Positions 10,834 to 30,905 of a stretch of 64,000 bases of DNA are shown in pieces. Within the stretch, counting starts at the first letter, position 1. The number at the start of each line of letters is the position of its first letter. Under the pieces are notes generated by a model. The model searched no databases. It saw nothing but the letters and a program-made list of their open reading frames with translations, and was not told the origin of the DNA. Source of the DNA: Halanaerobium hydrogeniformans. Lineage in GTDB: Bacteria > Bacillota > Halanaerobiia > Halanaerobiales > Halanaerobiaceae. Made by a program: the position numbers and the translations under genes. Where the stretch lies: positions 1,302,001-1,366,000 of the forward strand of contig NC_014654.1 in assembly GCF_000166415.1 (NCBI RefSeq), written 5' to 3'.

Positions 10834-12507
10834 GTGATTATTATTAAAACTGATTTTTTTGCTTATAATAAACTTAAAACATTTAAAAATCATTCTAAAG
10901 CACTACAGGGCTTTTTGCTGATATTTATTCTTTTAATAGGAGCTTTAGTATATTATACAGGTGGAACTAGAAACAGTTATGCTCATTTAATTTATCTACC
11001 GATTGTTCTTTCAGGATATTTTTATGGTTTAAAGGGAGGCATTACTGCTGCAGTGATCAGTGGGCTTGTGCTGGGCCCTTTTATGCCTATTGATACTGAG
11101 ACAATGTTAATGCAGCAGCCGCAAAACTGGCTTTTTAGAATGGTATTTTTAATTATTATTGGAAGTTTTGTGGGCTATCTTTTTGCAAATCTAGAAAGGC
11201 AGGTAATTAAAAATAGGAAAATAGCTTATTTTAATCAAGAAACAGGTTTGCCTAATAAAAGTACTTTGAAAAATGTTATAGATAATAAAATAGATAATAA
11301 AAAGGAATTTCATTTATTTATTTTGACCATTAACAACCTTTTAAATATCTATAAATTGACCGGTTTTAGCAATTTTACGGATTATATGGATCTTTTAATT
11401 GAACATATTAAGCAATATCCAGCCTTAGGAAAACAAATTTATTATATTAATGAAAATCACTATGGAATAATTTTGGATAAAGATAAAGTTGATGATCTAG
11501 TTGAATTCTCAAATGATTTTTTAAAATACCTTGATAAACCTGTTAACTTTGGTAATATTTCAATTTATAATAATTTTACAATGGGAATCACAACTTATCC
11601 AGATTATGCGAAAAAAACCGATAAAATTATTAATCAGGCTTTTTTATCGATTAAAAAAGCCAAAAACAAAAAACTTCCTTTCTGGCATTATGAGAATATT
11701 AATTTTAAAGAAAAAAATATTAATCTGGATTTGCTAGCAGAAATTAATAATTCTATTGAGAACAATAATTTTGAAATTTATTATCAGCCTAAAATTAACT
11801 TAAAAAACAATAAGGTACAGACTTTTGAAGCTTTACTTCGCTGGAACCATCCTGGTAAAGGCTATATATCTCCAGGAGACTTTATTCCCCTTGTTGAAAA
11901 AAGCAGTTTAATTGAACCTTTAACAGAGTGGGTAATTAATGAAGTTTTAAAAGATATTAGCAATTTTAAAGCTAAAAATAATAGTTTTAAATATGATATT
12001 GCCATAAATATCTCAGCTCGCAATCTTCAGCAGCCTAATTTTGTCGAATTATTAATTGATTATCTTAAGCAATATAATGTTAACCCAGAAAGATTTAGCA
12101 TTGAATTAACAGAAACTGACCTGATGGTTGAAATAGATAAAAATATAAAGAAGTTGAATCAATTAAAGGAAAAAGGGATAAATATTTATCTAGATGATTT
12201 TGGTAAGGGATATTCCTCTTTGAAATATCTAAAGGAAATTCCAATTGATTTTATCAAAATTGACCAATATTTTATCAAAAACTTGACTAAAGAAAAAAAG
12301 TCTCTAGATATAGTTCGTTCGATTATAGAATTAGCTCATGCCCTTAATATTGAAGTTGTTGCAGAAGGTGTAGAAACTGAAGCTCAACTTGAAGTGCTAA
12401 AAGATATTAATTGTAATTATGCACAGGGTTATTTATTTGCTAAACCGGATAAAAAAGAAAAGATAATAGAGTTTTTAAAAGAATTGGAAGCAGAAAGTTA
12501 TGCTTAA
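10834..12507 (+). CDS. Membrane-bound EAL-domain c-di-GMP phosphodiesterase with degenerate GGDEF domain
   Basis: 557 residues. About four N-terminal membrane helices (residues 25-120) precede a GGDEF-like domain (about 130-280) that lacks the GGDEF signature: IYYINENHYGIIL stands there. The EAL domain (about 300-550) keeps the catalytic set: EALLRW, NISARN, ELTETD, DDFGKGYSS, IKIDQYF, AEGVE and AQGYLF. It should hydrolyse c-di-GMP, with the GGDEF fold perhaps sensory. The start is unusual. GAGGTG at 10831-10836 overlaps GTG 10834, and the next in-frame candidates are ATT codons at 10837-10845, so either GTG or a rare ATT start is used. The 3' end overlaps the Mut7-C gene by 8 bp. Confidence 0.88.
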   Translation: MIIIKTDFFAYNKLKTFKNHSKALQGFLLIFILLIGALVYYTGGTRNSYAHLIYLPIVLSGYFYGLKGGITAAVISGLVLGPFMPIDTETMLMQQPQNWLFRMVFLIIIGSFVGYLFANLERQVIKNRKIAYFNQETGLPNKSTLKNVIDNKIDNKKEFHLFILTINNLLNIYKLTGFSNFTDYMDLLIEHIKQYPALGKQIYYINENHYGIILDKDKVDDLVEFSNDFLKYLDKPVNFGNISIYNNFTMGITTYPDYAKKTDKIINQAFLSIKKAKNKKLPFWHYENINFKEKNINLDLLAEINNSIENNNFEIYYQPKINLKNNKVQTFEALLRWNHPGKGYISPGDFIPLVEKSSLIEPLTEWVINEVLKDISNFKAKNNSFKYDIAINISARNLQQPNFVELLIDYLKQYNVNPERFSIELTETDLMVEIDKNIKKLNQLKEKGINIYLDDFGKGYSSLKYLKEIPIDFIKIDQYFIKNLTKEKKSLDIVRSIIELAHALNIEVVAEGVETEAQLEVLKDINCNYAQGYLFAKPDKKEKIIEFLKELEAESYA

Positions 12508-25666: not shown

Positions 25667-25842
25667 AACTTTTATAGGTTTTTTTAGGTTAGTAATAATA
25701 TTAATTTTTAAAAAATTATTAATAATAGTTACTATTTTCGTGTTATTTTCGATTTTTATTCGAGTAAATTTCTTAATTATTTTGATAAAATATTTTCAGA
25801 AGATATGAATAAATTATTATTTTGAGCTGGGAGGTGAGAACT

Positions 25843-28800
25843 GTGATAAAATTGAATCAAAAATTTTCATTATTTTTATTAATATTAATTCTATCCATAA
25901 TTTATAATATGCAAGTACAGGCAGAAATCTATCCAACTCAGGTAAAACTTATAATACAGTCCAGACAGGCAATAGTAGGACAGGATGATTTTTTTGAAAT
26001 TATAGAAATGGATGAGTATATATTAATACCTTTAGTATCACTTTCTAGATGGCTTGATATTGACTTAAATTATGACCGAAATAATAAGTTGCTAACAGTT
26101 TATTATGAAGAAAAAGATATTAATTTAATTGTAGATTTAAAATATAAAATTTATTATGATTTTCCAGATTGGTCAAAAGATCCTCCCAAAATTGTAGAGG
26201 GAGATTTTTATGTCGCAGTAGATCTGATTGAACATTTAACAGGTGCTAAAGTTGATTGGCAGCCTAGAAGACAGGAGTTGGTGCTTGATTATGACTATTC
26301 TGAGTTAGAAGATGGAGAAAAGATCACTGAAGTCAGAATTAAAAAAAGGCCGGATGAAATTATAATAGAACCTGAAGTCACTGGCCCTGATTTTTATCTA
26401 GCAGCTATTCAATATAAATTTGGTTTTGATTATGAATTTACCGATGAACCTGATGATGATTCTTTAGAGTTTAATAAGATTCTTTATTTGTATGGGCGAG
26501 CAGGTGACTGGGCAATATCTACAGGTCACACATTAGAATATGATTTTGATAGTGAAGAATATGAGTTTGAAAACAAGCTTTTAAGAGCTAGAAATATAGA
26601 AAATGATCGAATAATAATAATCGGAGATAATAAATTTAGATTTCCCAACACAATTGGAAGAACAGATATCAGAGGTTTTTATCTTCAATATCCGCTTCAA
26701 CAGATAAGTGACAGAAGAGCATATACTGCTGTAAGTGGTGAAGCGGAAGAAGGAAGCAATGTTACTTTATATGTTAATGATAGAAAGATAGACAACAAAT
26801 ATCTATATCAAGGTGAAAGTGAATATTATTTTGAAAATGTTCCTATAACAGAAGAAAGAACAAATATAATTAGAATATTAATAGAAGATATTGATGGCAG
26901 GGAAACTGAAATAGTTAAAAAGGTTGCTGGTAGTTTAAATGTTTTTCCAAAAGGCACTAATGAAGGGGTATATACTTTTGGCAGCAACAACAGAAGAACT
27001 GATTCAGAATCATTTTTTGAACTTGGTGGTATGCAGATAAAATATGCACCTTCTGCAGGTACTTCTTTGTTCTGGGAGCTTGGAGTGGAAAAAATTTATA
27101 ATAATTCTGATTCTGATGATTATAATCTTGGTAATTTACTTCGCGTTGCTGTAAGTCCTGAAGACCTTCCTTTAGTTTTTTTAGCAGATTGGTTAGCTGG
27201 CAGAGATGTAGATTTAGTTGAGCACGGTGTAAGAGCAAGTACACTTTATACTAAGGAAGACGGATATATAAAAGCGTCAGTTGCTTATGTTCCTCCATTA
27301 GTTGAAAAAAGAGTAAATGCAGATGCCGGACAACAGGCTTTAATAAACTTAGAAAAAGAGCTCAATCAAAACTGGAATTTAGATTTAGGATTAGAAAATC
27401 ATCGTTCAATCCTGGATATGGATAATTTTGAAGTAAGTACTATCAATTTAGCTTTTGACTATAGTGATAAGGCTAGAAATACATTAACTATTGCAGCTGA
27501 ATATGGAAACAGAGAAGAAGAAATTTACTGGAGAAGTTTAGATTTCACAGAAACTGGGCGTGATTGGTTTGATATTAGCTTAACTGGTAGAACTTTTAGG
27601 GGACCAGCTCGTCTGGGAAGCGAAATAATCTATGTCATCTCTGATATTGATTTCTATGATGATTTAGAAGATATTGATCTTTCAAAAAGAGAAGATTTTG
27701 CTTCAGTAAAATTAAATTTAAGCAGTAGTTTAACAGATAATTTAGTTTTAAGTGGTGGTTTATCATCTTCATTTACCTGGCTGGAAGGTGATCGACTTGA
27801 AAGTGATGCTGATGTTGATTTAAGGGTTAGGTTAAAAACTGGAGATTATACCTCAATTACTGCGGGAATTTCTACTGATATTGATTACAGAAAAGATAAA
27901 TACGGATTTGAATCAACATCTGAAGTACAGGAAGTGGAATTATTTTTAAGGCACGATATTCCAAGAAGTATTACTCTGACAACTGGTGTGAAAAAAACTT
28001 TTTTAGATGATGAAAGTTATCTGAGAAGTAATGCCGGTTTGGATTATGATAATCCAGATAATGACTGGAGATTGAGCTTAGACTATGAATATATAGCTCC
28101 ATATGGGACTAGAGAAAATCCACAACAGAAATATGGAATTGGATTTAAAAAACATTTATTTTCAGGCTTAGAAGCTCTATTTAATTTTGAGAGAACCTTT
28201 GCTTCTTCTAGAAGTGAAGAGCCTGTTTATGAAGCTTCTATATATTTGAGTCAGGTTCTTGGTTTTACAAAGGATAGAGTTATTGGTCAAAAATATCCTA
28301 GAATACAAAGAGAAACTTATAATTCATTTATTGCAGGTCTTGTTTATTTAGATATAAATGGAACTGGAAAAAGAGATCCAGGTGATCCCCTTTTATCAGG
28401 GATAAGTATTTCTAACGATGGTCGTAGGATAAATACAGATGAGGAAGGCTATTTTATTTTTGAAAACCTTAGAAGTGGATTATATAAAATAGGTTTTAAC
28501 TTAAGAGAGCTTCCCGAAGAATATAAGGTGCTTACCCAGGATAAGGTTATACAAATTAGAGAAAACGAAAATATATTTCTTGAATTTGCTTTGACACAAA
28601 TGGGAGAACTAAAAGGAAAAATTACTCTTGATCAAGATAAATTCATTGAAAAATATACAGAAGATATCCAGATAAACTTAATCAAATTTGAAATTGTAGA
28701 ACTTAATCGGATTATTTTCAGTAGAAGTGATGGTAGTTTTATAGCTAGAAATATCCCTTTGGGTCAATACAAATTGCGAGTTGTAGAAGATTCTTTACCT

Positions 28801-28902
28801 GAAGGAACTATGCTGGAAGAAAAAGGAATTTATGAGTTCGATATAACTACTGATAGTTTAGTAAATCAGGATATTAAAATCACTTTAGTTCCGAGCAATT
28901 AA
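25843..28902 (+). CDS. Large exported usher-like/outer-membrane beta-barrel protein with SdrD-like and CnaB-like ends
   Basis: 1019 residues from GTG 25843, with GGGAGGTGAG at about 25829-25838. A signal peptide (LFLLILILSIIYNMQVQA) is followed by copper-amine-oxidase-N-like folds (about 25-145; LIPLVSLSRWLDIDL, then YVAVDLIEHLTGAKVDW). Next is an usher-like region with IIGDNKFRFPNTIGRTDIRG and VSGEAEEGSNVTLYVND. Residues about 380-825 alternate polar and hydrophobic positions with many aromatic strand ends, as in a beta-barrel. An SdrD-like B domain (GLVYLDINGTGKRDPGDPLL, from about 830) and a second Ig/CnaB-like domain end it. It should sit in an outer membrane, so the host would be diderm. 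Role: secretion pore or surface assembly, by inference. No chaperone gene is adjacent. Confidence 0.65.
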   Translation: MIKLNQKFSLFLLILILSIIYNMQVQAEIYPTQVKLIIQSRQAIVGQDDFFEIIEMDEYILIPLVSLSRWLDIDLNYDRNNKLLTVYYEEKDINLIVDLKYKIYYDFPDWSKDPPKIVEGDFYVAVDLIEHLTGAKVDWQPRRQELVLDYDYSELEDGEKITEVRIKKRPDEIIIEPEVTGPDFYLAAIQYKFGFDYEFTDEPDDDSLEFNKILYLYGRAGDWAISTGHTLEYDFDSEEYEFENKLLRARNIENDRIIIIGDNKFRFPNTIGRTDIRGFYLQYPLQQISDRRAYTAVSGEAEEGSNVTLYVNDRKIDNKYLYQGESEYYFENVPITEERTNIIRILIEDIDGRETEIVKKVAGSLNVFPKGTNEGVYTFGSNNRRTDSESFFELGGMQIKYAPSAGTSLFWELGVEKIYNNSDSDDYNLGNLLRVAVSPEDLPLVFLADWLAGRDVDLVEHGVRASTLYTKEDGYIKASVAYVPPLVEKRVNADAGQQALINLEKELNQNWNLDLGLENHRSILDMDNFEVSTINLAFDYSDKARNTLTIAAEYGNREEEIYWRSLDFTETGRDWFDISLTGRTFRGPARLGSEIIYVISDIDFYDDLEDIDLSKREDFASVKLNLSSSLTDNLVLSGGLSSSFTWLEGDRLESDADVDLRVRLKTGDYTSITAGISTDIDYRKDKYGFESTSEVQEVELFLRHDIPRSITLTTGVKKTFLDDESYLRSNAGLDYDNPDNDWRLSLDYEYIAPYGTRENPQQKYGIGFKKHLFSGLEALFNFERTFASSRSEEPVYEASIYLSQVLGFTKDRVIGQKYPRIQRETYNSFIAGLVYLDINGTGKRDPGDPLLSGISISNDGRRINTDEEGYFIFENLRSGLYKIGFNLRELPEEYKVLTQDKVIQIRENENIFLEFALTQMGELKGKITLDQDKFIEKYTEDIQINLIKFEIVELNRIIFSRSDGSFIARNIPLGQYKLRVVEDSLPEGTMLEEKGIYEFDITTDSLVNQDIKITLVPSN

Positions 28903-29052
28903 CATCATTAAAATAAGAGCTAAACAATATCATTTATTTGATAATAGCTTTTTAAATAAAAATATTTTTTTAAAAAGGTGGTGATAACTAAAAAGTGAGA
29001 TAATAATATTTATTATGTTGAATTGTAGAGTACTAAATAAATTTGTCAAAAC

Positions 29053-29149
29053 TTATTGGATGCTGAGATCTGCCAGGATAAAATGGTCACCAGATTAATT
29101 GGCAGTGAGCTAAATGGTGAAACCGGCCAAAATTGATTAAGACCAATAA
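29053..29149 (+). promoter_or_regulatory. Structured 97-nt leader RNA before the CnaB-repeat gene
   Basis: TTATTGG (29053-29059) pairs perfectly with CCAATAA (29143-29149), whose end overlaps the ribosome site AAGGAGG (29148-29154). Inside are GCT/AGC (29062, 29108), TGCCA/TGGCA (29071-29075, 29100-29104) and TGGT/ACCA (29084-29087, 29089-29092). A competing pair is TGGTC (29084-29088) with GACCA (29141-29145), which would open the outer stem. No known riboswitch consensus fits: I checked for c-di-GMP, T-box and SAM motifs. Control of translation by alternative folding is inferred. Confidence 0.5.
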
Positions 29150-29162
29150 GGAGGAAATTTAA

Positions 29163-30905
29163 ATGAATAAAAAAAGCTTATTTTCTATTTCAGTAGTCCT
29201 TATTTTAACACTATTGATGGTTTTTGGTGTGTTTTTAACTACAAATGTTTTGGCAGTTGAACCTGAATATATTTCTGGAAATGATCAAGCCCTTCCAAGT
29301 GATATACGAGCATTGGATTCATATAAATTTGATCCAGTTGATCTTGGTATAACAACTAGAAGTGGTATTACAATTGATGTATATGACACCACAAGAGGTC
29401 AGGAGTTTGACTGGGAATCTAATAGGGCGATCGCATATGTTTTTGTTAAAGGTGGCCCTGGTGGTAATCTTTACGATTATACTCCTGGAGCAACTTCAGG
29501 GGATGGCCTTCATGCACCTGAAGCACCTAGTGGAAATTGGCATGGTTTAAGCCATATAACATTTTATTTTTCTGATGAAGAGTTAACAGGTGAGCTATTG
29601 ATAACCAAACAGTTTGAGTTAGGCGATGTAGTAGGAGATGTAGACTTCCCTGATTCTATCACAGTGGAAGTAACAGGTCCTTCCTATCTTGAAGGCGAAC
29701 TAGTTACCATAGATATCGATGCTGATGGTTATGGTGATATACTTTTAGAGAACCTGATCCCCGGTGACTATGATGTAGAAGAATTGGACTTTGAAGGCTC
29801 AGATGCCTGGGATTCCGATATAGTCGGTTCACCAGCAACAGTTGTGGCAGGAGCTACAGCAGTAGTAGAGGTTAATATCACCAACAGCTATTTAACAGGT
29901 GAGCTATTGATAACCAAACAGTTCGAGTTAGGAGATGTAGTAGGAGATGTAGACTTCCCTGATTCTATCACAGTGGAAGTAACAGGTCCTTCCTATCTTG
30001 AAGGCGAACTAGTTACCATAGATATCGATGCTGATGGTTATGGTGATATACTTTTAGAGAACCTGATCCCCGGTGACTATGATGTAGAAGAATTGGACTT
30101 TGAAGGCTCAGATGCCTGGGATTCCGATATAGTCGGTTCACCAGCAACAGTTGTGGCAGGAGCTACAGCAACAGTAGAGGTTAATATCACCAACAGCTAT
30201 TTAACAGGTGAGCTATTGATAACCAAACAGTTCGACTTAGGCGATGTAGTAGGAGATGTAGACTTCCCTGATTCTATCACAGTTGAAGTAACAGGTGAAT
30301 CATATCCTAATGGTGAGTTAGTTACCATAGATATCGATGCTGATGGTTATGGTGAAAAACTCTTAGAGAACCTGATCCCTGGTCTCTATTATGTAGAAGA
30401 GTTGGACTTTGATGGCTCAGAAATCTGGGATTCTATTATAGTCGGTTCCCCAGCAGAAGTTGTAGCAGGAGCTGCAGCAGCAGTAGAGGTTAATATCTTT
30501 AATAACTTTATAATGGCTGCTGAAACTGCCTGGGCTGCTCACGATGTTGGAGAATTTAGATATAATCCTGGCAGAGGTGGTAACTGGGCAACTTATGTTG
30601 AATATGCAGTTATTCTTGAAGATGGTGGCGTAGCAAATATTTATGCAGGTCAATCTGAATATGTAGGTTATGTAGTATTTATAGAAGATGGTAATTATGT
30701 AGACATTGAAGTTTATCTAGAAGATTGGGCATTTGAACCTGGTACCATTAATTTATATGTCCAGGATTATAGTGACCAACCTAGTGGAAATCCTGCTCCT
30801 GGAAGATTTGATTTTAAAGCAACAGAATCAGGTCTTGAAGCTAGTATTAGAGTTCCACTAAATGATTACTATGGTATCCACTTAAATGTCTATCAACTAT
30901 ATTAA
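29163..30905 (+). CDS. Secreted protein with three tandem CnaB-like repeats
   Basis: 580 residues, ATG 29163 with AAGGAGG 8 nt upstream. A signal peptide ends near NVLA. An N-terminal domain (about 32-140) is followed by three 103-residue repeats, each starting LTGELLITKQF and ending VNITNSY or similar. Each repeat has a Lys in ITKQF, a Glu in VEELDF and an Asn near the end, the arrangement that forms internal Lys-Asn isopeptide bonds in CnaB domains. A distinct C-terminal domain (about 450-580) follows. There is no LPXTG motif or lipobox. It lies 260 bp after the usher-like gene and is probably displayed or exported by the same system (inference). Confidence 0.72.
   Translation: MNKKSLFSISVVLILTLLMVFGVFLTTNVLAVEPEYISGNDQALPSDIRALDSYKFDPVDLGITTRSGITIDVYDTTRGQEFDWESNRAIAYVFVKGGPGGNLYDYTPGATSGDGLHAPEAPSGNWHGLSHITFYFSDEELTGELLITKQFELGDVVGDVDFPDSITVEVTGPSYLEGELVTIDIDADGYGDILLENLIPGDYDVEELDFEGSDAWDSDIVGSPATVVAGATAVVEVNITNSYLTGELLITKQFELGDVVGDVDFPDSITVEVTGPSYLEGELVTIDIDADGYGDILLENLIPGDYDVEELDFEGSDAWDSDIVGSPATVVAGATATVEVNITNSYLTGELLITKQFDLGDVVGDVDFPDSITVEVTGESYPNGELVTIDIDADGYGEKLLENLIPGLYYVEELDFDGSEIWDSIIVGSPAEVVAGAAAAVEVNIFNNFIMAAETAWAAHDVGEFRYNPGRGGNWATYVEYAVILEDGGVANIYAGQSEYVGYVVFIEDGNYVDIEVYLEDWAFEPGTINLYVQDYSDQPSGNPAPGRFDFKATESGLEASIRVPLNDYYGIHLNVYQLY
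29583..30509 (+). repeat. Three tandem 309-bp repeats inside the CnaB-repeat gene
   Basis: Units are 29583-29891, 29892-30200 and 30201-30509. Units 1 and 2 differ at four bases by my count; unit 3 is clearly diverged around SYPNGELVT and in its last third. The near identity at silent sites shows a recent duplication or gene conversion. Confidence 0.9.

Follow-up and report, generated by a model that had tools for sequence, protein, structure and literature searches.

What kind of leader RNA lies in the 260-nt gap that separates a gene ending at position 28902 from the next one, which starts at 29163, and how may that leader act on the gene behind it? The gap lies in the window, the 64,000-nt stretch of the Halanaerobium hydrogeniformans genome (one contig of 2,613,117 bases) that was analysed here. 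In the initial annotation, a foldable leader was placed at 29053-29149. It was said to fit none of the known riboswitch patterns and was proposed to be a new riboswitch, a protein-binding leader or a temperature or salt sensor. The leader is real, but it is no new riboswitch class. Its aptamer is a diverged member of the known c-di-GMP-II family that falls below the usual detection cut-off. The coordinates first given were nearly right; the whole element covers 29049-29154 (Table 1).

A search of the whole 64-kb window in Rfam gathering mode gave no match, and the leader therefore looked unclassified. When region 28900-29260 was searched in E-value mode, the c-di-GMP-II model RF01786 matched with 41.0 bits (E 1e-7) over model positions 1-84 of 84, and the second-best Rfam family reached E 0.88. 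The RF01786 gathering score of 53.5, which is a listing rule and not a structural feature, is not reached. The window aptamer was also scored with R1, a lineage model built from an alignment (A1) of 25 relatives from the same order, which omits the window, L003, L009 (near-identical to L008), L020 and L030. R1 gave 68.2 bits (E 2e-15), a score inside the range of 59-90 bits found for intact copies in the order. Of the order's 38 genomes, 22 contained RF01786 matches at E <= 0.1 and 17 had matches above the gathering cut-off; at E <= 1e-6, the family was found in 41 of 59 genomes of the class. The claim to novelty falls because a known Rfam family was found at the leader, which is the finding that the initial annotation had itself named as decisive against it. 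An apparent orphan leader is settled in this way as a known signalling RNA that is missed at the standard cut-off.

Table 1. Features of the leader and the gene behind it (window positions).
Feature	Position	Strand	Basis
c-di-GMP-II aptamer, diverged, below Rfam cut-off	29049..29137	+	RF01786 41.0 bits; model R1 68.2 bits
Aptamer P1, predicted ligand-bound state: UUGG 29056-29059 / CCAA 29127-29130, 4 pairs	29056..29130	+	alignment to R1
P2: GC 29062-29063 / GC 29109-29110	29062..29110	+	alignments
Kink-turn: bulge 29064-29066; GA 29067-29068 opposite GA 29107-29108	29062..29110	+	alignments
P3: 29070-29075 / 29100-29105	29070..29105	+	alignment to R1; columns covary in relatives
Pseudoknot: UCACC 29087-29091 / GGUGA 29116-29120	29087..29120	+	5 Watson-Crick pairs
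Putative ligand-contact core AACCGGCC	29121..29128	+	A69 A70 C71 C72 G73 of PDB 3Q3Z, own mapping
Alternative (OFF) stem: CUUAUUGG 29052-29059 / CCAAUAAG 29143-29150, competes with P1	29052..29150	+	pairing; relatives
Shine-Dalgarno (SD) sequence AAGGAGG	29148..29154	+	sequence
Predicted controlled gene: 580-aa secreted or surface protein, SpaA/CnaB-like repeats	29163..30905	+	weak Pfam SpaA match

Covariation, which had been suggested as a check, is present in the c-di-GMP-II aptamer alignment of the relatives (n = 25, window excluded). With the pseudoknot included, 95.4% of 475 cells were paired, a measure that is favoured because the A1 structure was read off A1 itself, and 15 of 19 pairs changed on both sides. 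None of 500 shuffles reached any of the five measures, and slid controls were 30-53% paired. The pseudoknot alone was 100% paired in the 25 relatives, with changes on both sides at four of its five pairs. What the computation establishes is family membership, a conserved core and, in the relatives, a covarying pseudoknot and covarying helices. In the 27-row alignment 15 columns do not vary, and the window conforms to every one of them.

The window aptamer resembles the c-di-GMP-II aptamer of Clostridium acetobutylicum (RF01786; PDB 3Q3Z) in its order of P1, P2, kink-turn and P3, its P3-loop pseudoknot and its AACCG core (29121-29125 in the window), which was kept in 25/25 relatives. It is likewise located upstream of a surface protein gene in a genome with many GGDEF proteins. 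The kink-turn consists of a 3-nt bulge followed by GA opposite GA, in columns that are invariant or near-invariant. Unlike the family model, the window scores below the gathering cut-off, has a short P1 of only four standard pairs, carries U/U at the third P2 pair (29061/29111) and has one extra base between P2 and the pseudoknot. Most relatives have A-U or G-C at 29061/29111, and four of 25 deviate from standard pairing at this position as well. One pseudoknot pair is A-U in the window and G-C in the consensus, a change that is common in this class. In a review (PMC7288161), the ligand contacts of 3Q3Z are given as A13, A14, U37, G39, U60, A61, C68, A69, A70, C71, C72, G73 and A74. By our own mapping, in which this numbering was transferred by counting from ACCG, the window retains A69, A70, C71, C72 and G73, and A14/U60 correspond to the U/U position. 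The equivalent of C68 is A, as in most relatives, and pairs with a U that replaces the consensus G.

How could this aptamer be connected to translation? The start codon lies 25 nt past the aptamer end, and the P1 5' strand has two mutually exclusive partners: CCAA, or the downstream strand that runs into GGAGG. The second pairing contains the perfect 7-bp closing stem noticed from the outset, TTATTGG (29053-29059) with CCAATAA (29143-29149), which C29052-G29150 extends to 8 bp. Its described run into the ribosome site also stands, since G29150 is the first G of GGAGG and lies inside the 8-bp stem. The reported TGGT/ACCA hairpin is partly present in the minimum-energy fold (three pairs), not in full. 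Its proposed exchange for TGGTC/GACCA is feasible in the window sequence but was rejected as unconserved: GACCA precedes the SD in one of 37 relevant leaders of the class, that of the window only, and the relatives instead keep UGGNCACC as the pseudoknot strand pairing with GGUGN. The aptamer match and the competing stem support the broader proposal that a surface protein is governed by a riboswitch whose alternative pairings end at the ribosome site. The folding energy of the 97-mer (z -1.74; 8 of 200 shuffles as good) is weak evidence when taken alone. Folding of the single sequence hides the aptamer because the alternative stem is preferred.

The alternative stem was compared across 82 leaders of the class, a set that from the start excludes the degenerate L003 and also L030, whose aptamer is truncated by a contig end. 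Near-identical copies are contained in this set and were removed only in the test of distinct combinations below. A start codon and SD were located <=45 nt from the aptamer in 37 leaders (near-start leaders). In a row-by-row count, the P1 5' strand forms a run of at least seven Watson-Crick or G-U pairs with the SD region in 30 of the 37, and the other seven lack a comparable 7-pair stem. One of the 30, L017, has a P1 5' strand that pairs with AGGAGGAA itself. Among 30 CC-anchored leaders (the per-pair table leaves out seven of the 37 near-start leaders, which have no usable CC anchor), pair 5 was AU in 15, UA in 10, GU in 3 and GC in 1, and pair 6 was CG in 25 and UA in 4; the alternative stem therefore covaries. 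With duplicates reduced to 11 distinct strand combinations, the six unanchored positions gave 52 Watson-Crick pairs out of 66 (shuffle mean 44.0; 2 of 5000 reached 52). The CC/GG ends were not counted as evidence because they were used as anchors in this test. In the order alone, the own-pair Watson-Crick run at 19 loci with assigned near starts averaged 7.42, whereas shuffles averaged 5.06 (0 of 500 as high) and pairings across loci 4.89; the own-pair mean is lowered because the set includes L005 (terminator type) and L003, whose runs are short. Nine leaders with distant starts had a mean run of 4.2, in a comparison of distant-start and terminator leaders in which the P1 strand of L020 was mis-anchored. 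A terminator-like hairpin near or overlapping the aptamer 3' part was found in 32 of the 45 other leaders, versus 1 of the 37 near-start leaders.

The 8-bp stem is likely the expression platform of the leader, and the leader as a whole is probably a c-di-GMP-II riboswitch that switches translation on. We infer c-di-GMP binding, the ON direction and translational control alike. Without c-di-GMP, the P1 5' strand would pair with CCAAUAAG, run into the SD and hinder binding of the 30S subunit. c-di-GMP would stabilise P1 together with the pseudoknot and the kink-turn. Once P1 is locked, its 5' strand would be withdrawn, CCAAUAAGGAGG would be freed and the surface protein could be translated. In the ligand-free fold, the OFF state is favoured by 8.1 kcal/mol (-26.7 vs -18.6, with the pseudoknot left out of the model). 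This preference could be outweighed if the aptamer folds during transcription, ahead of SD synthesis, and binds its ligand. In the OFF fold, 29150 is fully paired and is the only G of GGAGG (the first) to be so, and 29151-29154 are 0.50-0.83 unpaired; in the ON fold, 29153-29154 are just 0.36-0.44 unpaired. The computed change in exposure is for this reason mainly at 29146-29150, and the computed masking of the SD core is only partial. Because 29151-29154 stay mostly open in the OFF stem, repression would act through a helix that abuts the SD, not through burial of it.

In PMC6366702 and PMC6200980, C. difficile class II switches are described as ON switches for adhesins and pili. The ON reading of the window leader would agree with them, and C. 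difficile Cdi-2-4 before pilA1 resembles it in the predicted direction and the adhesin or pilus type of target. Cdi-2-4 acts by transcription termination, whereas in the window the start codon closely follows the aptamer and P1 pairs with the SD region. Both platform designs would read as ON because the ligand-bound aptamer lifts the block in each. The class around Halanaerobium probably uses two c-di-GMP-II ON designs, a terminator design that re-uses the aptamer 3' strand and a translational design in which the P1 5' strand masks the SD region. Under the latter, c-di-GMP would directly control the translation of curlin amyloids, pili-like subunits and CnaB-type surface proteins. In E. coli, control of curli by c-di-GMP runs via the protein CsgD. 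The leaders studied here point to a lineage-wide route, in halophilic diderm Firmicutes, of direct translational control of amyloid and adhesin genes. No description of a platform in which the P1 5' strand pairs with the SD region was found in searches confined to an open-access library.

Could the leader be something else? A strong ligand-free stem adjoining the SD, and a gathering-level Rfam match that is absent, are what a new riboswitch class, a protein-binding leader or a temperature or salt sensor would have in its favour. The sub-cut-off RF01786 match is highly significant, covers the full model and is confirmed by the independent lineage model R1, which makes these proposals very improbable. 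An aptamer of the c-di-GMP-II-GAG variant family (RF03169), with a possibly shifted ligand preference, shares the architecture and the U-A pseudoknot pair, and its model also matches the window (37.9 bits, E 9.4e-6). Furthermore, a Coriobacteriia gene (L120) that shares the N-terminal region of the 580-aa product sits under an RF03169 aptamer of 59.4 bits. However, RF03169 misses its own cut-off of 40 here and RF01786 scores the window higher. The A-U pseudoknot pair is common to the window and GAG, but the adjoining A is canonical. Directly before ACCG, the GAG consensus has G (GA before CCG), and the window and 25/25 aligned relatives have A (AA before CCG). GAG identity was placed second to c-di-GMP-II on the missing G and the 37.9 bits, and is quite unlikely. 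Since A and not G precedes ACCG and the RF03169 score stays below its cut-off, the aptamer sequence leads us to expect c-di-GMP, not an altered ligand. The initial annotation had aptly named c-di-GMP among the ligands to probe.

It is also unlikely, if somewhat conceivable, that a once-working aptamer is losing ligand binding and turning into a constitutive leader hairpin. The closest orthologue of the gene (G012 / H. polyolivorans, 79-85%) has a clearly decayed aptamer in the same place in its leader, with 21.5 bits and an altered pseudoknot and ACCG; aptamer control is thus dispensable in one sister species, because only this decayed form is kept. The second copy in the source genome is broken as well, and the U/U at P2 and the inserted base of the window fit the same course. 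Against decay, the window keeps every position that is invariant in the 27-row alignment, together with a complete pseudoknot and an undisturbed alternative stem. The translational c-di-GMP-II switch remains the preferred reading.

The 580-aa product begins with a signal-like sequence, and its Pfam SpaA match (E 6.6e-4) is below the cut-off. Its N-terminal region recurs behind other c-di-GMP-II-type aptamers, in L022 (52% identical across 156 aa; aptamer of 49.1 bits) and L032 (29%, E 6e-11; aptamer 52 bits); at L119, an R1 search found no aptamer. Among 20 downstream proteins scanned, eight have curlin repeats (PF07012; one of them is L003, with its broken aptamer) and three have DUF4402. The products of L017, L025 and L026 were read from sequence as having a type IV pilin-like start. 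Curli homologues are noted in Halanaerobium in a review (PMC4551309). The source genome has 28 GGDEF matches and three c-di-GMP-I riboswitches, and therefore encodes the means of making and sensing c-di-GMP. These riboswitches precede a long secreted-looking ORF (L033, genome position 299132), a transposase-like ORF pair (L034, 2552413) and a PAS-GGDEF-like protein (L035, 314539). A weak GGDEF match (29.6 bits) is located at 11236-11673 of the window.

A scan of the plus strand just upstream of the leader gave no convincing promoter. At 28974-28988, an SD-like AAAAAGGTGGTGATAAC has no ORF behind it; the same place in G012 reads AGGAGGTGATTATC. The upstream gene (25822-28902) encodes SdrD_B/SpaA-like domains and a copper amine oxidase N-terminal domain. 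L003, the second c-di-GMP-II-like leader of the source genome (2012606-2012691, minus strand), precedes a 271-aa curlin-repeat protein and scores 18.5 bits with RF01786 and 45.6 bits with R1. It was not taken for another functional copy, since it lacks an alternative stem and has lost conserved G and C positions as well as several pairs. Tandem c-di-GMP-II aptamers (L096 / L109) were found in G050 (contig 4, 58524-58702), where it is the first aptamer, not the second, whose P1 5' strand matches CCAATGAGG before the gene.
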